Source: Candidatus Zambryskibacteria bacterium CG10_big_fil_rev_8_21_14_0_10_42_12 (GTDB lineage Bacteria; Patescibacteriota; Minisyncoccia; Phycocordibacterales; 1-14-0-10-42-12). Taken from it: 56,492 nt of DNA. A model generated the notes under the pieces. The model worked only from the letters and a program-made list of their open reading frames with translations, was not told the origin of the DNA and did no database searches. Shown here piece after piece: positions 473 to 29,879 of this stretch. The stretch's first letter is position 1. Every line of letters begins with the position of its first letter. The stretch spans positions 1 through 56,492 of the forward strand of contig PCXL01000008.1 of assembly GCA_002787695.1 (NCBI GenBank), read 5' to 3'. The translations under genes and the position numbers were made by a program.

Positions 473-1840
473 ATGGACACAATCAAAAAAGAAGTCGGAC
501 TCAAAATACCTGCATGGCTTATTGCAATAGTCGGTATACTTGCGGCCGCAGGCCTCTTTTTTGTTGTGTTATCTCTCGCTGCTTTACGAGCGGATGAATA
601 TACGTTGCCAAAGGGACTGTTTGCACAAACAGAGGATAATTTTGATTTTGGTCCACAACCTGTTCTCTCTGATCCAAACTATTTCAAGACGGTGCGAGAC
701 AAAATGCTCGAAGAGAAACTGAGTTTTATTGAAGCAGATCTTTCAGCTATGAAGGTGACATTGTATAAAAATGGAGAAAAAGAGATAGAAGTACCAATTG
801 CCACAAAAGGTAGGGAAGGTTCGTGGTGGGAAACGCCAGCAGGCATATATAAAATCGAATATAAAGCAGAAAACCATTTTTCATCATTCGGTCATGTGTA
901 TCAGCCATATAGCCTGGCTTTTCAAGGAAACTTCTTTATTCATGGATGGCCATACTATCCGGATGGCACCGATGTTCCGCGTTCGTATTCTGGCGGATGT
1001 ATTCGTCTAGAGACTGAAGATGCGGAAAAAATTTTTGCACTAGCGGAAAAAGACATGCCGGTGCTTGTATTTGAAGACGATTTTAAAGGAGATGAATTTT
1101 CATATGATGCACGTATTCCAGGTGTGACCGCGGATTCATATTTAGCGGTTGATTTGAGTAACAATTTTGCGTTTCTTTCCGAGGAAGCAGACAAAAAATT
1201 TTCTGTAGCTTCAATTACTAAACTCATGTCTGCGGTTGTAGCGACAGAATATATTAATATAGAAAAAGAGGTTGTGGCAGGTACCGACCTTGCATCAACA
1301 TCAATTCCTCGTATTAAACCTGGCGAAGTCCACACCGTCTATTCATTGCTCTACCCACTGTTGCTCGAATCTTCAAATGAGGCCGCAGAAGTTATTGCGG
1401 ATTCAATCGGGGAGAGCTGGTTTGTTGATCGTATGAATACCAAAGCAGATGCTATCGGACTTACCGACACGCATTTTGCAGATGCCTCAGGTGAAAAGTC
1501 TGCCAATGTTTCTACTGCAGAAGACCTCTATCGTCTTGCAAAGTACCTCTATCACAATCGGAAATTTATCCTTTCTCTCTCGGTAGATAAACTGGGATTC
1601 AATGTGTATGGCGATTCATCATTTACTGGTCTTCAAAATCTCAATGATATTCCTGGACTCAGCGGATATATGATTGGTGCAAAAGTGGGGCAGAGTACTT
1701 CGGCAGGACAGACTATGTTGGCAGTCATGGAATTGCCACTTCAAGGAGAAATCCGTCCTGTTGCTATCGTGGTGTTGGGGTCAGAGGATAATAAACGAGA
1801 TGTGAGATTGATTGCTGAGTATCTCCTCAGTCGATATTAA
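473..1840 (+). CDS. Fusion of L,D-transpeptidase (YkuD) and D-alanyl-D-alanine carboxypeptidase-like (peptidase S11) domains, membrane anchored
   Basis: N-terminal TM segment; YkuD motif IHGWPYYPDGTDVPRSYSGGCIRL; S11 motifs SITK (SxxK) and SSN (SxN). ORF opens at 452; ATG 473 (MDTIKKEV) is the likelier start. Confidence 0.85.
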   Translation: MDTIKKEVGLKIPAWLIAIVGILAAAGLFFVVLSLAALRADEYTLPKGLFAQTEDNFDFGPQPVLSDPNYFKTVRDKMLEEKLSFIEADLSAMKVTLYKNGEKEIEVPIATKGREGSWWETPAGIYKIEYKAENHFSSFGHVYQPYSLAFQGNFFIHGWPYYPDGTDVPRSYSGGCIRLETEDAEKIFALAEKDMPVLVFEDDFKGDEFSYDARIPGVTADSYLAVDLSNNFAFLSEEADKKFSVASITKLMSAVVATEYINIEKEVVAGTDLASTSIPRIKPGEVHTVYSLLYPLLLESSNEAAEVIADSIGESWFVDRMNTKADAIGLTDTHFADASGEKSANVSTAEDLYRLAKYLYHNRKFILSLSVDKLGFNVYGDSSFTGLQNLNDIPGLSGYMIGAKVGQSTSAGQTMLAVMELPLQGEIRPVAIVVLGSEDNKRDVRLIAEYLLSRY

Positions 1841-1842
1841 AC

Positions 1843-2571
1843 ATGAATATTTCTGTATTGTATGAAGATGATGACGTGTTGGTTCTTGATAAACCAGCGG
1901 GTCTATTGGTGCACGGTGATGGGAGAAGTGTGGAAGAAACACTCGTTGATTGGATTCACGAACAGTATCCCGACATTCAGGATGTTGGGGAAGATGCGCG
2001 TGTGGCAACAGGAGAGATCGTAAAGCGCCCTGGTATTGTGCATCGTATTGATCGTGACACCTCGGGCGTTATTATTGTATGCAAAACCGCTGAGAGTTTT
2101 GCGCACATGAAGCGACAGTTTCAAACGCGACAGGTAGAGAAACACTACAAAGCTTTTGTCTACGACAATATAAAAGAAGATGAAGGAGTTATCGATAAGC
2201 CAATCGGTAGAAGTCCAAAAGATTTTAGACAATGGTCCTCAGAAAATAATGCGCGCGGGGAATTGCGTGAAGCAGAAACGCGCTGGAAGAAGATTATTTC
2301 CACAAAAACCTGTGCTTTCTTAGAAGTCATACCTAAAACAGGCAGAACGCACCAGATTCGGGTACATTTAAAATATATAGAACATCCGATAGTTGCAGAC
2401 CCGCTCTATGCGCCACAGAGGGCCAAGCTTCTGGGGTTTGAAAGGTTGGCTCTGCATGCCCATCAGATCTCATTTGAGACGGTTTCAGGTAAAAAGGTTT
2501 CTGTTGAGGCTCCGTATCCGAGAGACTTTGAGAAAGCTATTGAAACAATTGCCAAAGAAGAAACCCTGTGA
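1843..2571 (+). CDS. RluA-family pseudouridine synthase
   Basis: Motif [20 protein letters not shown] and [19 protein letters not shown]. Confidence 0.9.
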
Positions 2572-2587
2572 TACTCTATGTCGCGTT

Positions 2588-3073
2588 ATGGCAGAAGTCT
2601 TCTCTCCAGTAAACATAAAAGAACGACAGGCGCTTGATGTCCGAGCGGGGGATACAGTTCGTGTGCACCAGAAGATTCAAGAAAAAGGTAAAACTCGCAT
2701 TCAGATTTTTGAAGGACTCGTCCTTGCGGTAAAGCATGGCAAAGAAGCGGGTGGTACATTTACGGTTCGTCGTGTAGCAAGTGGAGTAGGAGTTGAGAAG
2801 ATTTTCCCAATCTATTCTCCAATGATCGACAAGATCGAGATCGTAAAGCGATCAAAGGTTCGTCGCGCAAAGCTTTACCACATTCGTGACAAGGCCGCTA
2901 AAGATATCCGCCGCCAGATGAGAAATATCCGAGAGGTTCCAGATATGCCAGAGATTGAAGAAGAGGTACTTGCCTCAGAAGCTCCAGAAGTAACAGAAGC
3001 AGAAGTGGTAGAGGAAAAGCCGGACGAAACTCCTTCAGAAGAAACCTCAACAGAAGATAAAAAAGAAGAATAA
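2588..3073 (+). CDS. rplS: 50S ribosomal protein L19 with acidic C-terminal extension
   Basis: Starts [51 protein letters not shown]; the listed ORF starts too early (2393). Confidence 0.92.
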
Positions 3074-3098
3074 AACAAACGCCCCTGGGCGTTTGTTT
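3074..3098 (+). terminator. Rho-independent terminator after rplS
   Basis: AAACAAACGCCC-CT-GGGCGTTTGTTT hairpin. Confidence 0.8.
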
Positions 3099-3140
3099 CG
3101 TATTGAAAGTTCAGAAAACTTTGAGTATAGTGATGTTGAT

Positions 3141-3226
3141 GCGCAGGTGGCGGAATTTGGTAGACGCGCTGCCTTGAGGTGGCAGTGCCCGTTTAGGGCG
3201 TGGAGGTTCAAGTCCTCTCTTGCGCA
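3141..3226 (+). tRNA. tRNA-Leu (GAG)
   Basis: GCGCAGG...CTTGAGG anticodon loop, long variable arm, GGTTCAAGTCC, CTTGCGC-A. Confidence 0.93.
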
Positions 3227-3227
3227 C

Positions 3228-3264
3228 AATAACAAAAACGCACTCCTTAGGAGTGCGTTTTTGT
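3228..3264. terminator. Bidirectional terminator between tRNA-Leu and DoxX-like gene
   Basis: AACAAAAACGCACTCC-TTA-GGAGTGCGTTTTTGTTA. Confidence 0.8.
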
Positions 3265-3617
3265 TATTTCTTTAGCATATACCACAGGGCGAGTGGTGCA
3301 CCCCAGTTTGTCCATCGCTCAAAGAAATCCCAAATAGGATCTCCGCCAAATGGCCATCTTATGAGTGCGGTCCAAAGCCCCCAAAACGCCATCCAGAGTA
3401 CGAGTGGTCGCATTGGTTTTATAAGCACCAGGAGTGCAAGTGCAACATCCATAATGCCCACAACCAACAGCATGGTGACTATGGTATCTGGATTGGTGAT
3501 ACCAAAAGTTTCAAAATATTTAAACCACCCCTCTTTTCCTTGGAGCGCGAATACACCGTGTCCGAGGAATTCTCCGGCAACTGCGATTCGAAGAATCCAC
3601 ATTATTTTATCGTTCAT
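3264..3617 (-). CDS. Small DoxX-like integral membrane protein
   Basis: 117 aa, 3-4 hydrophobic helices, DoxX-like spacing. Confidence 0.55.
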   Translation of the reverse strand: MNDKIMWILRIAVAGEFLGHGVFALQGKEGWFKYFETFGITNPDTIVTMLLVVGIMDVALALLVLIKPMRPLVLWMAFWGLWTALIRWPFGGDPIWDFFERWTNWGAPLALWYMLKK

Positions 3618-3746
3618 ATGATTAGCTTAGTTTCTAATATACATTACTATGCATATATCATAGCTCCGTTTATAAAAAAATTTTGTATACCTGTGTATTT
3701 GTGTCAGTGATTCGCTTGCGGTATAAATAACACTCGGAGGTTTGCC

Positions 3747-3905
3747 GTGTTTGAGATCTTTAGTCCGCTGTACGCGGTTGCTGGTGACATGTACGATACG
3801 CTCTCGAACCCACGAGAATGGTTCTGGGGCATCGTTGAACTGTTGCGCGAAACGGTTGTTGCAACCAGTAGCGCCGTGCGGCAATTCGGTGGTCGGTTAC
3901 TTTGA
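3747..3905 (+). CDS. Small hypothetical protein (52 aa, GTG start)
   Basis: GGAGG 5 nt upstream of GTG; translation VFEIFSPLYAVAGDMYDTLSNPREWFWGIVELLRETVVATSSAVRQFGGRLL*; hairpin CGCCAGT...ACTGGCG follows. Absent from supplied track. Confidence 0.6.
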   Translation: MFEIFSPLYAVAGDMYDTLSNPREWFWGIVELLRETVVATSSAVRQFGGRLL

Positions 3906-4024
3906 CCACGCTTCGCAAATCAGGGCGCCAGTCTCGTTTGAGTCACTGGCGTCTTTCTCTTTATTGTCACAAACAGTGTTTTTACAAACTTGTCTTGTAA
4001 CCTTAATTCATTATTGAGATAATA

Positions 4025-4525
4025 ATGAATATGGCTATATCAAATTGTAAAAATTGTTCAAAAAATTTTTATGTTAAGCCTGCTCATCTTAAATCTGGCA
4101 AAGGTCTCTATTGTTCTCTTTCCTGTAAATACAAAGGAACTCGTACAGGTAAGCTGGTATCCTGCTCACAGTGTGGCGTATTGGTCTACAAAAAGAAAAC
4201 AGAATTAAATCGCTCTAAAAGCAAAAAGTATTTTTGTTCAAAATCGTGTCAGTTTAAGTGGAGGAATAGAAACTTTATTGGCGAAAAACATACTAATTGG
4301 AAACATGGAAAATTTACATATAGGGGAATTTTAGAGAGGAGTAATGTGCCAAAAGTGTGTCGCTTATGTAAAACCACGGACAAGCGTGTTTTGGCGGTTC
4401 ATCATATTGATCATAACCATGAAAATAATGTATTTGAAAATTTAGCGTGGCTTTGTCATAATTGCCACCACCTTGTCCATCACTATAAGCAGGAGAGGGC
4501 TAGGTTTATGGCGGTTGTGGTGTAA
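4025..4525 (+). CDS. HNH endonuclease with N-terminal Cys-pair zinc motifs
   Basis: VHHIDHNHENNVFENLAWLCHNCHHLVHH plus CxxC pairs; 3' end overlaps tRNA-His. Confidence 0.8.
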   Translation: MNMAISNCKNCSKNFYVKPAHLKSGKGLYCSLSCKYKGTRTGKLVSCSQCGVLVYKKKTELNRSKSKKYFCSKSCQFKWRNRNFIGEKHTNWKHGKFTYRGILERSNVPKVCRLCKTTDKRVLAVHHIDHNHENNVFENLAWLCHNCHHLVHHYKQERARFMAVVV

Positions 4526-4581
4526 TGGTAACACTACAGTTTGTGGCACTGTCGATCCGGGTTCAATTCCCGGCAATCGCC
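4510..4581 (+). tRNA. tRNA-His (GTG)
   Basis: G-1 plus GCGGTTG...TTTGTGGC anticodon loop...GGGTTCAATTCC...CAATCGC-C; 8 bp acceptor typical of tRNA-His. Confidence 0.92.
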
Positions 4582-4657
4582 CAAGTTTAGGAATAAGAGA
4601 CGACAAGGGGCCTAAGTTAGGAATAAATAACGTTGTATGCTTCAATAGAGTTTCTCT

Positions 4658-5083
4658 ATGCAAACTTATTCTGCCACTAGGCGTTTCTGGATGTTCACGT
4701 ACGCAAACACAGTTTTTGTTGTTCATTTTTTACTTGTGCTGATGAATGTTGTGGGCTGGATTTTCCCGGGACCAATTTTTTATGCGTATCTTACAACATG
4801 GTTTCTGGCTGTTGCGGTCGATATTCTTTTCGGTGTCTGTCCTCTTACACAGATGGAATTTAACATAAGGAAAAAGCTTGATCCTGAAGCCAAGTTTGAA
4901 AAGTCGTGCATGGTGCATTACATCCGTAAATGGCGCGGATTAGCTCCACGATCTCCCGAATCTGATGCACCGAAAACATGGAGACAAAAACATTCGATCG
5001 TCTTTATCATGGTGCCGCTCTTGGTCGTAAGTCTTATCTGGCAAACGCTCGTCTATGGGCGAGATATTTTTTATTTTGCGTAA
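4658..5083 (+). CDS. DUF2784-like membrane protein
   Basis: Membrane protein with FGVCPLTQMEF motif. Confidence 0.5.
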   Translation: MQTYSATRRFWMFTYANTVFVVHFLLVLMNVVGWIFPGPIFYAYLTTWFLAVAVDILFGVCPLTQMEFNIRKKLDPEAKFEKSCMVHYIRKWRGLAPRSPESDAPKTWRQKHSIVFIMVPLLVVSLIWQTLVYGRDIFYFA

Positions 5084-5109
5084 ATATACTGTTCGGGTAT
5101 GATGTCGGG

Positions 5110-5231
5110 ATGAATCCCGTTAGAGGCCGCGGTCACTAACGCGCATATAATAGTTATGAATATGTTTGTAGGTATTAGTACATATAACCAGCTTGTTGCT
5201 ACCCATCGCGACCTGCCTCTAACGGGATGAA
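5110..5231 (+). repeat. Start-codon element copy 1 (112 bp element 5115-5226 plus ATGAA duplications)
   Basis: ATGAA-TCCCGTTAGAGGC...GCCTCTAACGGG-ATGAA; abuts ATG 5227. Confidence 0.85.
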
Positions 5232-5814
5232 AAACCAGAAGCATATCGGACTGGATTTTGATGATGTGATTTTTGATATGTGCGGGTCTATTGTTGAGTA
5301 TCACAATAAAAATTACGGGACAAATTTGACACGCGATGACATGGTTTCTTTTGAATTTTCCGATGTATGGAAATGTAGTATCCCAGAAACGCAACGGCGT
5401 GTGTGGGAATTTTTTGATTCTCCTGAACATCAGGTGAGCGAACCCGTGCCTGATGCAATAGAACATGTAAAAGAATTACTGGATAACTACAAAGTTACTA
5501 TTGTCACCGCGCGTCCAGAAACACACATGGTACCGACAAAAAAATGGCTGGAGAACCATGTGCCGGAACTACTCCCATATATGCATTTTACAAATGGTTT
5601 TGGTGGCGGAGTAAAGAGAGAAAAAGGGGAAGTGTGTAAGGAGCTTGGTATCGATATTTTTGTCGAAGACGCACCAATTCATATAGAAAGTGTTTCAAAA
5701 ACAGTGCCTCAGGTGTATCTCTTTGATATGCCGTGGAACAAAGCGCTTGTTGATCTGCCTAAAAATGTAGAACGGGTGCATTCATGGGCTGATTTGCGTG
5801 AGAAACTCCTGTAA
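5227..5814 (+). CDS. HAD-family 5' nucleotidase-like protein
   Basis: GLDFDDVIFDMCG, VTIVTARPE, FVEDAPIH HAD motifs. Confidence 0.75.
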   Translation: MKNQKHIGLDFDDVIFDMCGSIVEYHNKNYGTNLTRDDMVSFEFSDVWKCSIPETQRRVWEFFDSPEHQVSEPVPDAIEHVKELLDNYKVTIVTARPETHMVPTKKWLENHVPELLPYMHFTNGFGGGVKREKGEVCKELGIDIFVEDAPIHIESVSKTVPQVYLFDMPWNKALVDLPKNVERVHSWADLREKLL

Positions 5815-5894
5815 AGTCAGATATTGACTTTAGTATAAAATAATGCTATTATATAATTAGGTACCCCTTACTAAAGGGGGAGGAGAAGCTTGAC

Positions 5895-7049
5895 ATGAGG
5901 ATTCAGTTTTCGGCCATGATTCTGGCCATTTTTTCGTTCGTTTCGGTGTTGCCGGCCGAAGAGCAGCGGGTCATCGAGCCTACCTACATGGTTGGTTCTG
6001 GACTGACGAAGGACGGGCCGACGGCTCGCGATCTCGCGAACACCACTGCAAAGCTTTCGGCGGAGCGGAGGAGCCAGTTTCACTGCGTTCCGGAGTCGCT
6101 GCTGGTTTCCTACGTCGGGGAGGTCACATCCTTTACCGACGCGGACTGTGATGGTGTGGCGGAATACGTTCACACCATCTGGAGTCAGAGAGCGGGTCGA
6201 TCACTCGAGTTCGGATACTTGGTCCAAGACCAAGACCGAACCATTCACTCGTCTACAACGAGAGGGTTGATCTCGATCGATCCAACCTACCAGAAAAACC
6301 AGCGACTCTTTGGGAAAGAGATCGAGGCGGCCATGATTCACACGAGCCAGAGCCTTTTCGATCCGAAGCGGACCGGGGATTTCTTTCTGATCGGCGGCGA
6401 AGGTCCGTTGATCGAGAAGGAGGTACTTGTCGAACAAGACGAGAAGGGCGAGGTTGTGCGAGAAATATTGGTGAATACAGCTGTCAATCCGTACCTGGGG
6501 TTTGGTCCCCAGAATTGTCTCGACTTCGCGTGGCACAAGCCAACGCAGAGCTTGCTCTGTATCGGTGAGTGGCAGGTGTACGACGACGAGGAGCCAGTCT
6601 CCGGACTCTGGGTCATCCCGAGAAAACTCAGTGGCCAGCTCGATTGGGAGCGCCCACGATTTTTCTGGTCCATCAGCGAGAACGTGAAATACGCGGGGCT
6701 CGCGGCGGACGAGACAGGGGTTTACCTGTTCATCGTTGCGACCGACCAGTCGGGTCCACTTGCAACCTCATGGCTGGTACACGTGACTCTGCAACGGAAT
6801 GGTCACGAAGGGCCTTTCGGAGCGGCTTATCACGTGATCAGTCACGATCTGGCGGATCCGACGGTTCGACAACCGATCGCGATCGCCAAGGAGGGATTGC
6901 GGGTAGTGCTGGCGTCGTACTGGGGTAACCAGGTGACGCATGACATATACCATGTATCGAGGGACGGACAGAAGGTCAGACCGTTTGCGCTAGGTTTTGG
7001 CAAACCAGGCGGAATGGTCGTCCAAAAAATCCGTCCCGGCAAAGGCTAA
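5895..7049 (+). CDS. Hypothetical secreted protein, GC-rich relative to neighbours
   Basis: Signal peptide MRIQFSAMILAIFSFVSVLPAEE; GGGGGAGGAG RBS; no recognised family. Confidence 0.7.
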   Translation: MRIQFSAMILAIFSFVSVLPAEEQRVIEPTYMVGSGLTKDGPTARDLANTTAKLSAERRSQFHCVPESLLVSYVGEVTSFTDADCDGVAEYVHTIWSQRAGRSLEFGYLVQDQDRTIHSSTTRGLISIDPTYQKNQRLFGKEIEAAMIHTSQSLFDPKRTGDFFLIGGEGPLIEKEVLVEQDEKGEVVREILVNTAVNPYLGFGPQNCLDFAWHKPTQSLLCIGEWQVYDDEEPVSGLWVIPRKLSGQLDWERPRFFWSISENVKYAGLAADETGVYLFIVATDQSGPLATSWLVHVTLQRNGHEGPFGAAYHVISHDLADPTVRQPIAIAKEGLRVVLASYWGNQVTHDIYHVSRDGQKVRPFALGFGKPGGMVVQKIRPGKG

Positions 7050-23575: not shown

Positions 23576-25270
23576 ATGCAGGACGCAATCAAACAGTGGG
23601 TTAAGGAAATACTTGGTACAGATGCAGATTTTGCCGTGGAGTATCCGGCCGTTTTGGAGCACGGAGATTATGCAGTCAATATCGCAATGGTTGAAGCGAA
23701 GAAAGAGGGAAAAAATACACGAGAACTTGCAGAAAGTTACAAAGAAAAACTTGATGCAAATCTTTTGCCAGACATAGAAAAGATAGAGGTTGCTGGGCCA
23801 GGTTTTATAAATATTTTTTTGAAAAAAGAATTTTTTGGTAAAACAGTTGGTGAGATTTTAGAGAAGAGAGGGGAGTACGGAAAAAATAAAACACTCAATA
23901 AAAAAATAAGTTACGAATACACTAATACAAATGTTTTAAAACCGATGCATATCGGACACCTCATGGGCAATGTGATTGGTGAGTCGCTTTCAAGAATTGC
24001 TGAATGGAATGGGGCAGATGTATTGCGTAATACATATCAAGGTGATGTGGGGCTTCATATTGCTAAAACGATTTGGGGTCTACAACAGTTGGAAGGCATT
24101 AAAGATTCAGGTAACTTGTCTGCAGATGTAACGTATGTTGGGGAAGCCTACGCAAAAGGTGCGGCAGCTTATGAAGATGATGAATTGGCACAAGCAGAGA
24201 TAAAAGAAATAAATAAAAAAGTGTATGACGGCACCGACACCGAGATTGAAAAATTAAAAGATTGGGCGAAAGATGTAAGCCTCCGTCATTTCAGAGAGCT
24301 GTATAAGATTCTTGGAACCACTTTTGATGATGAAATGTTTGAAAGTGAGGTGGCAGAAGATGCGCTTACGATTGTTAATGAATACAAAGAAAAAGGAATA
24401 TTTGAAGAAAGTGATGACGCGATAGTTTTCAATGGCAAGAAATATGATGAGGCACTGCATACACGCGTGTTTGTAACGTCACAAGGCGTACCAACATATG
24501 AAGCAAAAGATATTGCGCACGCATTACGCAAATACAAAAAGTATCATTTTGATGAGTCGCTTATTATTACAGCCAACGAACAGGATGAATATTTTAAGGT
24601 GGTGCTGACGGCACTTGCGCATATTAATCCAGAGATAGCAGAGAAAACAACGCATATTTCGCACGGCATGCTCAAACTCACAACCGGGAAAATGTCTTCG
24701 CGAACAGGCAATATCATCACGGGCGAAGCATTGCTCGAACAATCTTTTGCGGGAGTACAAGAAAAAATTCAGGAAGAAAAAGAGGGTTTGGTGAGTACAG
24801 ATGATGTGCAAAATATTGGAGTCGCTGCTATTAAATACACAATACTAAAGCAGGCACCGGGTCGAGATATTATCTTTGATTTTGAAAAATCACTTTCATT
24901 TGAAGGAGATTCGGGACCATATTTGCAATATACAGCGGTTCGGACAAAAGCAATCAAAGAGAAAGCAAAGACAGAAGGAGTTTCTCATAATGTAGAAAGA
25001 TCAGAGAGTTTTGGTGCGCAGACTATTGAGAGGATGTTGCACAGATTTCCTGAAGTTGTAAAACGTGCTCATACAGAACTCGCGCCACAAGCAATCACTA
25101 CGTATCTCATAGAACTTGCAAGTGCCTTCAATACATTTTATGGTGCGGAAAAAATTGTAGACAAAGACGATGTAAATTCTCCTTATAAACTTGCACTCAC
25201 AGAAGCGGTGGGGCAGGTGGTACGAAACGGGCTATATCTCCTAGGAATTAAAACTCCGGAGAAAATGTAG
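23576..25270 (+). CDS. argS: Arginyl-tRNA synthetase
   Basis: EYTNTNVLKPMHIGHLMGNVIGESL, KMSSRTGN. Confidence 0.95.
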   Translation: MQDAIKQWVKEILGTDADFAVEYPAVLEHGDYAVNIAMVEAKKEGKNTRELAESYKEKLDANLLPDIEKIEVAGPGFINIFLKKEFFGKTVGEILEKRGEYGKNKTLNKKISYEYTNTNVLKPMHIGHLMGNVIGESLSRIAEWNGADVLRNTYQGDVGLHIAKTIWGLQQLEGIKDSGNLSADVTYVGEAYAKGAAAYEDDELAQAEIKEINKKVYDGTDTEIEKLKDWAKDVSLRHFRELYKILGTTFDDEMFESEVAEDALTIVNEYKEKGIFEESDDAIVFNGKKYDEALHTRVFVTSQGVPTYEAKDIAHALRKYKKYHFDESLIITANEQDEYFKVVLTALAHINPEIAEKTTHISHGMLKLTTGKMSSRTGNIITGEALLEQSFAGVQEKIQEEKEGLVSTDDVQNIGVAAIKYTILKQAPGRDIIFDFEKSLSFEGDSGPYLQYTAVRTKAIKEKAKTEGVSHNVERSESFGAQTIERMLHRFPEVVKRAHTELAPQAITTYLIELASAFNTFYGAEKIVDKDDVNSPYKLALTEAVGQVVRNGLYLLGIKTPEKM

Positions 25271-25708: not shown

Positions 25709-25792
25709 ACGTTCTTGGACTTGGATTCTGAAGCGGTGCTCTAAAGGCGCCGCTTTTTGAATAAAGGCATTTTTACTGCTATATTTTCACCT

Positions 25793-28700
25793 ATGGATGG
25801 AGAAGCCTACAAATCTGATATAGCAAAAAGAGAGGAGGGAATACTCAATTTTTGGAAAGAGAACAACATTTTCACAAAAAGCCTAGAGAAAGAATCTCCA
25901 AAAGGGGAGTTTGTTTTCTATGATGGACCTCCATTTGCAACAGGACTTCCTCATTATGGTCACTTATTACCGGGCACGATCAAAGATGTGATTCCACGAT
26001 ACAAAACCATGCGGGGGTACCATGTCTCGCGCAGGTGGGGTTGGGATTGTCACGGACTTCCGGTAGAAAACTTGATTGAAAAAGAACTTGGGCTCGAAAC
26101 AAAAAAGGATATTGAAGTCTATGGTGTAGAAAAATTTAACGAAGCGGCACGTGATTCAGTTTTGCGTTATGCAGATGATTGGCGAGAGATTATTCCACGA
26201 TCGGGTAGATGGGTTGATATGGATAATGACTACAAGACCATGGAAGCTTCGTATACCGAAAGTGTCTGGTGGGCATTTAAGAATTTGTACGATAAAGGAC
26301 TGGTATACGAAGGATTCAAGTCTATGCATATTTGTCCGCGATGTGAGACGACGCTTTCAAACTTTGAAGTGAATCAAGGATACAAAGATGTTACTGATAT
26401 TTCGGTGTATGTGAAATTTAAGCTTATTGGTGAACCGGATACATATTTGCTTGCATGGACAACTACGCCTTGGACATTGCCCGGCAATGTTGCTCTCGCA
26501 GTTGGAGAGGATATTGATTATGTTGAGATTGAAAAGAAAGATATGGGTGAGGGTAAGCTCATAAAATTTATTTGTGCAAAGGAGCGGCTCGCACCTCTTT
26601 TTGGGAGTGACGATTTTGAAATTCTGAGAACGATAAAGGGTAAAGATCTTATCGGTAAATCATACGAACCACTTTTTGATTACTATGCAAAAGATGAGTC
26701 ACTTAAAAATAGGGAGAATGGTTGGAAAGTATACGGAGCAGATTTTGTAACCACAGAAGATGGTACAGGCATCGTGCATATCGCCCCCGCATTTGGAACG
26801 GATGACATGGAGCTTGGTAAAGAATACGATTTACCATTTGTGCAACATGTCACCATGGATGGACACATGAAGCCGGAAGTGGCTGATTTTGCCGGAATGA
26901 TGGTGAAGCCGAAGAGTGAAGATGAAAAAGAGAGGCTCTCTACAGATATTGCGGTACTTAGAGTGCTTCAAGAAAATGGTGCCTTTTTTGATAAAGAAAA
27001 AATCACGCACTCGTATCCGCATTGTTGGCGCTGTGATACACCGCTTTTAAACTATGCAGCAAGTTCTTGGTTCATTGAGGTTTCTAAAGTACGTGAGAAA
27101 CTAGTCAAACTTAATAACGGAGTTTCGTGGGTTCCAGAAAGCATTGGAGAAAATCGTTTTGGAAACTGGCTTTCGGAAGCAAAAGACTGGTCTATTTCAC
27201 GAGGGCGTTTTTGGGGTGCACCACTTCCAGTATGGAAGTGTGCATCGTGCAATAAGGTAGAGGTACTTGAGAGTATTGATGATCTCAAAAAGCACACAAA
27301 AACAAAAAATACATACTATGTGATGCGACATGGTGAGTCCGATCACAATGTCGGAAACTTTATCAGTACTGATCCGAACAATAATTCGCATTTGACTGAT
27401 GTAGGCAGGGAGCAGGTTCTAAAAACTGCAGAAAATTTGAAAAAAGTTGGTATCACCAAAATCATTACATCACCATTTGCGCGCACAAAAGAAACGACAG
27501 AGTTAGTCGCAGGTATTCTTGGTATTTCAAAAGACAATATCATTCACGATGAGCGAGTCGGAGAACTCAAGGTGGGGGATGTATACGAGGGTAAAACGAT
27601 TGATGAATATCATGAGTTTTTCACGAGTGTGAAAGACAGATTCATGAGAGCGCCAGAAGGTGGCGAGACTCTCACTGACCTCGTGAGACGCGTTGGTGAA
27701 TTTCTATACTCACTTGAATCAACATATGAAGGTGAAAACATTCTGATCATAAGTCATGAAGCAACAATCAATACGATGCATATGGTGACAGACGCAAAGA
27801 GTATTGATGATGCGGTTTCTATAAAACTAGACGATCATGAGAATCCAAAAACAGCCGAAGCAAAAGAATTAGGATTTTGGAATGCGCCACATAATAAAAA
27901 CTATTGGATTGATCTTCATAGGCCCTATATTGATGAAGTAGAGGTATATTGTGATTGTGGAGAAAAAATGAGCCGTATTCCGGAAGTTTTTGACACGTGG
28001 TTTGACTCCGGCTCCATGCCGTATGCACAAAACAACTATCCTTTTAAGCATAAAGAAGCATTTGAAAACAAAGAGCTGTTTCCGGCTGATTTTATTGCAG
28101 AAGGATTAGACCAAACGCGTGGATGGTTTTATACGCTCTTGGTGCTTAACGGGTTGCTTTTTGATGAATCTCCATACAAACATGTAGTTGTAAATGGATT
28201 GGTGCTTGCAGAAGATGGCAAGAAAATGAGTAAGCGTCTCAAAAACTATCCGGAACTTTCAGTAGTTTTTGATAAGTATGGTGCCGATGCGCTCCGCTAC
28301 TATTTGATGTCATCTCCTGCGGTTCGTGCTGAAGATGTCGCTCTTTCCGAAAAGGGTATTGATGAAGTGGCAAAGAAAAATATCGGACGCTTGGTAAACG
28401 TACTTTCGTTTTATGAAATGTATCAAGGTGAAGTTAGTGATATGAGTGATGTGGTAAAAGGTGAGTATGTGCTTGATAGGTGGATTCTTGTACGACTGTT
28501 TGAAACCAGAAATGAAGTGACAACATCGCTTGATGCATATGAGATAGACCGTGCCACACGACCGCTCGCTGTTTTTATTGACGATCTTTCAACATGGTAC
28601 CTCAGACGATCACGTGATCGGTTTAAATCAGGAAATGAGACAGATGAAATACAGGTGCGTACGACACTGCGGTATGTACTCCGGGAGTTTGCAAAGCTCG

Positions 28701-29281
28701 TGGCACCTTTTATGCCGTTTATTGCTGAACATATATATATAAGAGTGAAGCTCGATACAGATGCAGAAAGTGTTCATTTGGTAGAGTGGCCGGAAGAAGC
28801 TCGGGTAGACCAAGATCTTTTAGGTAATATGGAGCGCACGCGCGCCATAGTGTCTCTTGCACTTGAAGCACGGGCGAAAGCTAATATCAAAGTACGTCAG
28901 CCGCTTGCATCGCTCGCAATTCCGGAGGCGCTTCATGATGATTTGCTAGAGCTCATCAAAGACGAAGTAAATGTCAAAGTAATTGAGACTGGTACGAAAG
29001 AACTCTCGCTCGATACACATATTACGGATGAACTCAAAAAAGAGGGAAGGATGCGCGACATTGTCCGCCTCATTCAAGACGAACGCAAGAAAAATAATTT
29101 TGTACCGAGCGATATGGTGGATGCAACATTTGATGCGAGTGATGAACTTAAGGAAATTATTGAAGAATTTAGCAAAGTCATTAAAAAAGAAACCGGCCTC
29201 AAAGATATCGAATTCAAAGAATTATCGGGCGAAAAACGAAAAATTGATGATCTGGAGATAGGGATTGTGCTTAAAAAATAA
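25793..29281 (+). CDS. ileS: Isoleucyl-tRNA synthetase with inserted histidine-phosphatase domain
   Basis: PPFATGLPHYGHLL (HIGH-like), KMSKRLKNYPE, zinc-binding Cys pairs; inserted RHGES...SPFARTKETTE...SHEATINTM. ORF opens at 25757. Confidence 0.95.
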   Translation: MDGEAYKSDIAKREEGILNFWKENNIFTKSLEKESPKGEFVFYDGPPFATGLPHYGHLLPGTIKDVIPRYKTMRGYHVSRRWGWDCHGLPVENLIEKELGLETKKDIEVYGVEKFNEAARDSVLRYADDWREIIPRSGRWVDMDNDYKTMEASYTESVWWAFKNLYDKGLVYEGFKSMHICPRCETTLSNFEVNQGYKDVTDISVYVKFKLIGEPDTYLLAWTTTPWTLPGNVALAVGEDIDYVEIEKKDMGEGKLIKFICAKERLAPLFGSDDFEILRTIKGKDLIGKSYEPLFDYYAKDESLKNRENGWKVYGADFVTTEDGTGIVHIAPAFGTDDMELGKEYDLPFVQHVTMDGHMKPEVADFAGMMVKPKSEDEKERLSTDIAVLRVLQENGAFFDKEKITHSYPHCWRCDTPLLNYAASSWFIEVSKVREKLVKLNNGVSWVPESIGENRFGNWLSEAKDWSISRGRFWGAPLPVWKCASCNKVEVLESIDDLKKHTKTKNTYYVMRHGESDHNVGNFISTDPNNNSHLTDVGREQVLKTAENLKKVGITKIITSPFARTKETTELVAGILGISKDNIIHDERVGELKVGDVYEGKTIDEYHEFFTSVKDRFMRAPEGGETLTDLVRRVGEFLYSLESTYEGENILIISHEATINTMHMVTDAKSIDDAVSIKLDDHENPKTAEAKELGFWNAPHNKNYWIDLHRPYIDEVEVYCDCGEKMSRIPEVFDTWFDSGSMPYAQNNYPFKHKEAFENKELFPADFIAEGLDQTRGWFYTLLVLNGLLFDESPYKHVVVNGLVLAEDGKKMSKRLKNYPELSVVFDKYGADALRYYLMSSPAVRAEDVALSEKGIDEVAKKNIGRLVNVLSFYEMYQGEVSDMSDVVKGEYVLDRWILVRLFETRNEVTTSLDAYEIDRATRPLAVFIDDLSTWYLRRSRDRFKSGNETDEIQVRTTLRYVLREFAKLVAPFMPFIAEHIYIRVKLDTDAESVHLVEWPEEARVDQDLLGNMERTRAIVSLALEARAKANIKVRQPLASLAIPEALHDDLLELIKDEVNVKVIETGTKELSLDTHITDELKKEGRMRDIVRLIQDERKKNNFVPSDMVDATFDASDELKEIIEEFSKVIKKETGLKDIEFKELSGEKRKIDDLEIGIVLKK

Positions 29282-29282
29282 T

Positions 29283-29879
29283 ATGTATCACACCTATTCA
29301 ACAGACGCTATCGTGCTTGAAAGTAAAGCAATGGGAGACTCGAGTCGGCTCTTGTGGCTCTTTACCAAAGACTTTGGTCTTATTTTGGCAGATGTTAAAA
29401 GTGCGCGTGGACATCTTTCAAAACTGCGTCCTTCAATCCAAACATATTCGTATGGTCTATTTACACTTGTGCGCGGCAAACGCGGATGGAAGGTGATCAA
29501 TGTTATTGGAAAAGGAAATCATTATTATGAACTTCGTTCGACACGTAGTGATGCAATAGAAGCACTTGCGCGCACGAGTCATGTGATGAGAAAACTTATT
29601 GGTCTTGATGATGTGGTCCACGAGGATGTATTTTCGTTATTGTCCCAAGGTATTGAACAAATGAAATGTAGTAATGCTACTGAATCATGCGTTATTGAGT
29701 CTGTGATGGTATGTCGCATGCTCGGGAGGCTCGGCTACATGACACATGAAGGTTTGCCACAATTGCTCGTAAGCCCGTACCTCAATTTCTCAGAAGAGCT
29801 TTTGGCTGCTGCAGTGCCTATGCGAGCGGCGCTCAATAGGCGTATTAATGCATCTCTAAAACAAACTGGTTTGTTATAA
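29283..29879 (+). CDS. recO: RecO-like DNA repair protein
   Basis: TDAIVLESKAMGDSSRLLWLFTKDFGLI with OB-fold-like N-terminus. Confidence 0.72.
   Translation: MYHTYSTDAIVLESKAMGDSSRLLWLFTKDFGLILADVKSARGHLSKLRPSIQTYSYGLFTLVRGKRGWKVINVIGKGNHYYELRSTRSDAIEALARTSHVMRKLIGLDDVVHEDVFSLLSQGIEQMKCSNATESCVIESVMVCRMLGRLGYMTHEGLPQLLVSPYLNFSEELLAAAVPMRAALNRRINASLKQTGLL

Follow-up and report, generated by a model that had tools for sequence, protein, structure and literature searches.

We analysed a window of 56,492 nucleotides from a Candidatus Zambryskibacteria genome (G000 in our comparison set, in which G-, L- and f-numbers denote genomes, loci, and families). The window contains an isoleucyl-tRNA synthetase (IleRS) gene, ileS, on the forward strand at 25757-29281, as a single stop-free open reading frame of 1174 codons. 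Its first possible start codon is a TTG at 25757, and the alignment indicates that the ATG at 25793 is the likelier start. The 1174-residue protein belongs to the IleRS family according to TIGR00392 (896 bits against a curated cut-off of 621). Its synthetase body comprises the domains tRNA-synt_1, Anticodon_1 (PF08264), and DUF5915, and the IleRS signatures HYGH (aa 66) and KMSKR (aa 823; synthetase active site, 28223-28237, forward strand) are both present. As the sole IleRS of a 675 kb genome that is 98% complete, the protein probably charges tRNA-Ile with isoleucine; separate ValRS-like and LeuRS-like genes were also found in this genome. The upstream gene (23576-25270, forward strand) was identified by reading the sequence as encoding ArgRS, and a RecO-like open reading frame (29265-29879), identified in the same way, begins within the last codons of ileS with a 17-base overlap. 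No remnant of a histidine phosphatase was seen in the gap between argS and ileS.

Inside ileS we found a histidine phosphatase (HP) domain of branch 1, inserted in frame at 27299-27910 on the forward strand (aa 515-718, including the C-terminal linker, FWNAPHNKNYWI). An initial annotation had placed the insert at 27300-27905, which was accurate, and had suggested a domain search, structure prediction, and a survey of its phylogenetic distribution. The domain search returned a match to PF00300 covering aa 521-685 (27317-27811, forward strand; E 2.1e-29), with 103 bits against a curated cut-off of 21.7, which assigns the insert to branch 1 of the HP superfamily. The full residue set of this superfamily could be located on the forward strand: the RHG motif (R524-H525-G526, 27326-27334), in which H525 is the presumed phosphate-accepting histidine; the phosphate-pocket arginine R576 (in SPFARTKET, 27482-27484); the presumed proton donor E603 (in GELKVG, 27563-27565); and the second catalytic histidine H667 (in ISHEA, 27755-27757), the last three being invariant. 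The HP signature with a retained RHG and second histidine that the initial annotation had described was therefore recovered, as was its proposal of an in-frame fusion within a functional-looking IleRS, in which the open frame continues through the insert to KMSKR.

To which HP family the insert belongs was assessed with the NCBIfam equivalogs dPGM_arch, GpmB, CobC, phosphoserine phosphatase, and SixA, all of which scored far below their cut-offs for the insert and for its stand-alone partners. A named family was thus rejected, as no curated equivalog attained its cut-off. The catalytic R-H, R, E, and H were kept in 80/80 distinct IleRS HP inserts, tandem copies included, and the glycine of RHG was replaced by alanine in 7 of the 80. 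Mean identity to the window protein was 36% for the insert versus 54% for the synthetase body. A domain that changes faster than the body but keeps an invariant active site suggests that selection acts on catalytic activity.

The insert occupies a short loop of the synthetase. In unfused relatives the motif WKCxxC..GSIxEL is followed, after about 10 residues, by DLHRPYIDxx..CxCG. The HP domain lies between GSIxEL and DLHRPYID, and parts C495-x2-C498 (27239-27250) from C732-x-C734 (27950-27958, both on the forward strand). By homology with the Thermus thermophilus IleRS, we assign these cysteines to the second zinc knuckle, one pair to each half. All four were present in 30/49 aligned sequences and all four were absent in 19/49. 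The initial annotation had stated that other IleRS proteins are continuous at this site, which holds for the IleRS chains in the PDB and for four genomes of the same order.

Both the insert and the whole enzyme were modelled confidently with AlphaFold2. The insert alone reached a pLDDT of 95.4 and a pTM of 0.92, and the whole enzyme reached 90.4 and 0.82, respectively. A Foldseek search with the insert model returned PhoE (1h2e) as the best match (E 2.5e-12), and the top matches were all HP enzymes with a probability of 1.00, which agrees with the alpha/beta HP fold. The whole model matched the IleRS fold.

We then examined how widely the fusion is distributed. It was found in 54/60 genomes of the same order, nearly all from different families, with 5 of these 54 calls based on frame length only. 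Four genomes (G021, G028, G053, and G054) carried an unfused IleRS, and in two no full IleRS was found. Across 286 genomes of the class, about 80 had an uninterrupted IleRS, and among the matches listed most of the others break at profile position ~500. In the rest of the phylum most of the ~134 genomes had an unfused IleRS, and roughly twelve had the fusion. One of the 54 fused cases in the order comes from a single-contig genome of ~1 Mb, and a fused IleRS was also found on a Candidatus Taylorbacteria contig. A scan of the genome contigs with the insert as query led to one locus, and the HPs found in phages and plasmids were distant only. The initial annotation had named an assembly join inside the gene as a finding that would speak against it; such a join, like chance, is excluded because the same insert recurs at the same site in so many genomes of the order.

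The initial annotation had also counted it as evidence against its reading if relatives encoded the two as separate genes without a fusion. Such genomes exist, and in them the HP gene is often directly upstream of ileS. We searched for insert-type HPs in 79 genomes with an unfused IleRS and compared their positions with that of ileS. An HP gene was located directly upstream of ileS on the same strand in 11 genomes (G102, G076, G186, G293, G147, G178, G203, G137, G278, G245, and G300), 0.6-1.9 kb upstream in six genomes of family f97, and elsewhere in seven. Hence 17/24 insert-type stand-alone HP genes were adjacent to the unfused ileS or within 2 kb of it. The naive probability of this by chance is ~1e-42, or ~1e-17 when counted by family, both of which are rough values as the genomes are related. 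In G102 the HP stop codon and the ileS start codon overlap as ATGA, and in G102, G137, and G293 an argS-like gene lies upstream of the HP-ileS pair, as it lies upstream of the fused gene in the window. In the HP tree all 11 ileS-adjacent genes nest within the main clade of IleRS inserts. A separate HP gene so often directly 5' of ileS strengthens the functional link rather than refuting it. No HP match was found at E 1e-8 in 38/79 genomes with an unfused IleRS, which indicates that synthetase function does not need the HP. One stand-alone HP of the insert clade (L116, G126:C6:75500-84500, 4162-4752, reverse strand), from family f112 with an unfused IleRS, adjoins a large restriction/helicase-like gene and not ileS.

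The equivalent loop of valyl-tRNA synthetase (ValRS) was found to carry an HP at 14 loci, and the full catalytic set was present in 11/15 ValRS HP domains. The RHG arginine was lost in L103 and L104, and the acidic position was occupied by D in L085 and L095, with the second histidine also unaligned in L085. The HPs of L103 (G206:C54) and L104 (G253:C55) belong to a different subfamily, and in L103 an RBBP9-like serine hydrolase (PF06821) comes after the HP. Tandem HPs were found in family f206 and, once in ValRS, in G383, where L080 (G383:C25:15000-20500, ORF 875-4708, reverse strand) encodes a 1278-aa ValRS whose two HPs lie in tandem. The same genome encodes an IleRS of 1451 aa (L081, G383:C25:72500-78500, ORF 1638-5990, reverse strand) that has a GNAT acetyltransferase in the loop where the HP normally sits; its HP lies elsewhere, ahead of the anticodon-binding domain. 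Another IleRS, of 1428 aa (L108, G276:C63:500-6500, ORF 798-5081, reverse strand), has both an HP and a NUDIX domain (aa 347-462), which apparently sits in the editing region.

The history of the inserts was analysed by counting changes on a tree of IleRS bodies (144 rows). The fused or unfused state requires 15 changes on this tree. A second insert type (10 rows) forms one supported clade and occupies the same loop as the first type. Several bodies with the second type group with carriers of the first, giving at least eight changes of insert type. The genomes G000 and G001 (L006), of the same genus, have sister inserts in bodies from distant clades, which suggests body replacement around the insert or transfer of the insert. 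The trees separate the insert types, and single origins were not rejected by AU tests (p = 0.24 for Ile1+Ile2, 0.12 for all Val, 0.09 for Val+Ile2, and 0.11 for tandem copies). Only two groups look clearly separate in origin: the G383 IleRS insert, because it lies at a different site, and the G206/G253 ValRS inserts, because they fall inside a clade of free-standing HPs.

On balance, we favour an IleRS with two activities, in which an active HP phosphomonoesterase is tethered to the charging of isoleucine, and sometimes valine, in a conditional and non-essential role. The HP domain would act through a phospho-histidine intermediate, and would do so locally, tethered to the synthetase as its partner. 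Its job would be conditional and linked to the charging of tRNA-Ile and, in some lineages, tRNA-Val. The recurrence across related species, as a fusion or as an adjoining gene, means that the job of the phosphatase is very probably tied to tRNA charging. HP enzymes are promiscuous, so the fusion alone names no pathway. Our preferred but tentative guess at the substrate is that the HP takes phosphate off something that would block charging, and so clears or repairs a phosphorylated species on the spot. The obstacle would be either a small molecule close to the active site, nucleotide-like or phosphorylated, or a phosphate group attached to the 3' end of the tRNA or to the synthetase itself. The initial annotation had proposed an editing-like, regulatory, or substrate-clearing activity. 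Of these, classical amino-acid editing has the lowest probability and is unlikely in itself, because the normal editing domain is present and the bonds that HP enzymes cleave are those of phosphate esters rather than aminoacyl esters.

Three features recall an accessory role in protection or clean-up more than they do a core step: the patchy distribution, the swapping of insert types, and the presence of GNAT, NUDIX, and hydrolase domains in a few of these enzymes. This is an argument from pattern. A more speculative extension, which we hold to be improbable as it stands, is that Patescibacteria use the second zinc-knuckle loop of IleRS and ValRS as an exchangeable site for protective enzymes. 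This site would hold mostly an HP, and at times a GNAT domain or an HP with a serine hydrolase. These enzymes might disarm inhibitors directed against aminoacyl-tRNA synthetases, or undo phosphate marks set by competitors or phages on the tRNA end or the synthetase.

Among the alternatives to a tethered phosphomonoesterase linked to charging, the one that survives best, though it is unlikely, is regulation at the protein level. The HP would dephosphorylate the synthetase (phospho-Ser/Thr/His) or an associated protein, and thereby switch charging on or reverse an attack by a kinase. The HP-superfamily members SixA and PGAM5 do have protein substrates, namely nucleoside diphosphate kinases (PMC12934123), and tethering within the catalytic core suits action in cis. 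However, there is no known phosphosite, kinase partner, or conserved contact from insert to body, the insert type varies independently of the body, and the nearest solved relative is a phosphatase of broad specificity. Less likely again is that the domain is a general phosphatase or phosphoglycerate mutase which is simply carried by an abundant synthetase and has no link to charging. The best weak family match, at 86 bits, is to a phosphoglycerate mutase model with a cut-off of 225, and the N-terminal domain of iPGM is absent from G000. This explanation does not predict recurrence at the same loop in IleRS and ValRS or the repeated co-location of a separate HP gene with ileS, and another three HP genes or gene-like matches were found in the genome. 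It is very improbable that the domain is a structural filler that replaces or braces the zinc-knuckle loop with irrelevant chemistry: the position at that loop and the loss of knuckle cysteines in some sequences would fit, but the catalytic residues are invariant in the IleRS inserts and a catalytically intact separate gene lies beside ileS in several insert-free lineages. A chimeric assembly or mis-joined contig found no supporting point and was rejected as a negligible prospect, since the same junctions occur in dozens of separate assemblies, the single-contig genome and the Candidatus Taylorbacteria contig among them.

If the favoured explanation is true, one loop of a universal housekeeping enzyme has become the seat of a recruited phosphatase in a very large group of bacteria, and the phosphatase is often retained as a neighbouring gene in unfused lineages. 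It would further predict an unrecognised phosphorylated species, or a phosphate mark, that affects the charging of branched-chain amino acids, with a gene-fusion argument at hand for finding it. The insert would also explain why some 'isoleucine--tRNA ligase' genes of Patescibacteria are over-long. We found no report of an HP domain in an aminoacyl-tRNA synthetase in the open literature searched, and a paper on an aminoacyl-tRNA synthetase database makes no mention of a phosphatase. Synthetases with added catalytic domains are already known; the HP domain, its site, and its recurrence appear to be new.

Compared with known systems, the whole body of the window protein is like IleRS type 2 (for example Priestia megaterium IleRS2, 8c8u-8c9d; yeast IleRS, 8wnd; T. 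thermophilus, 1ile), with 30-34% identity and Foldseek E values of 1e-70 to 1e-85. They have in common the HIGH-like and KMSKR motifs, the editing domain, and the anticodon and C-terminal domains. However, these chains are without the HP domain in that loop and have nothing aligned opposite aa 515-710 of the window protein. The nearest solved relative of the insert is PhoE, the broad-specificity phosphatase of Geobacillus stearothermophilus (1h2e, 1ebb), which has the same catalytic set and 32% identity (sequence E 6e-17, fold E 2.5e-12). PhoE is a free-standing protein, whereas the HP of the window is an insert. A precedent for an enzymatic domain on IleRS, known to NCBI curators, is NF040702 (ileS_w_GNAT), whose N-acetyltransferase chemistry differs from that of an HP; the G383 IleRS, with its GNAT in the HP loop, is comparable. 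The window protein is without GNAT and falls outside this family (333 bits against a cut-off of 1999). Mycobacterial MutT1 is a fusion of a NUDIX domain and an RHG histidine phosphatase, the HP activity of which is itself unknown (PMC11784022); the IleRS of G276 combines the same two kinds of domain. Like the window protein, MutT1 joins an HP domain to a nucleotide-handling enzyme, although MutT1 is not a synthetase.
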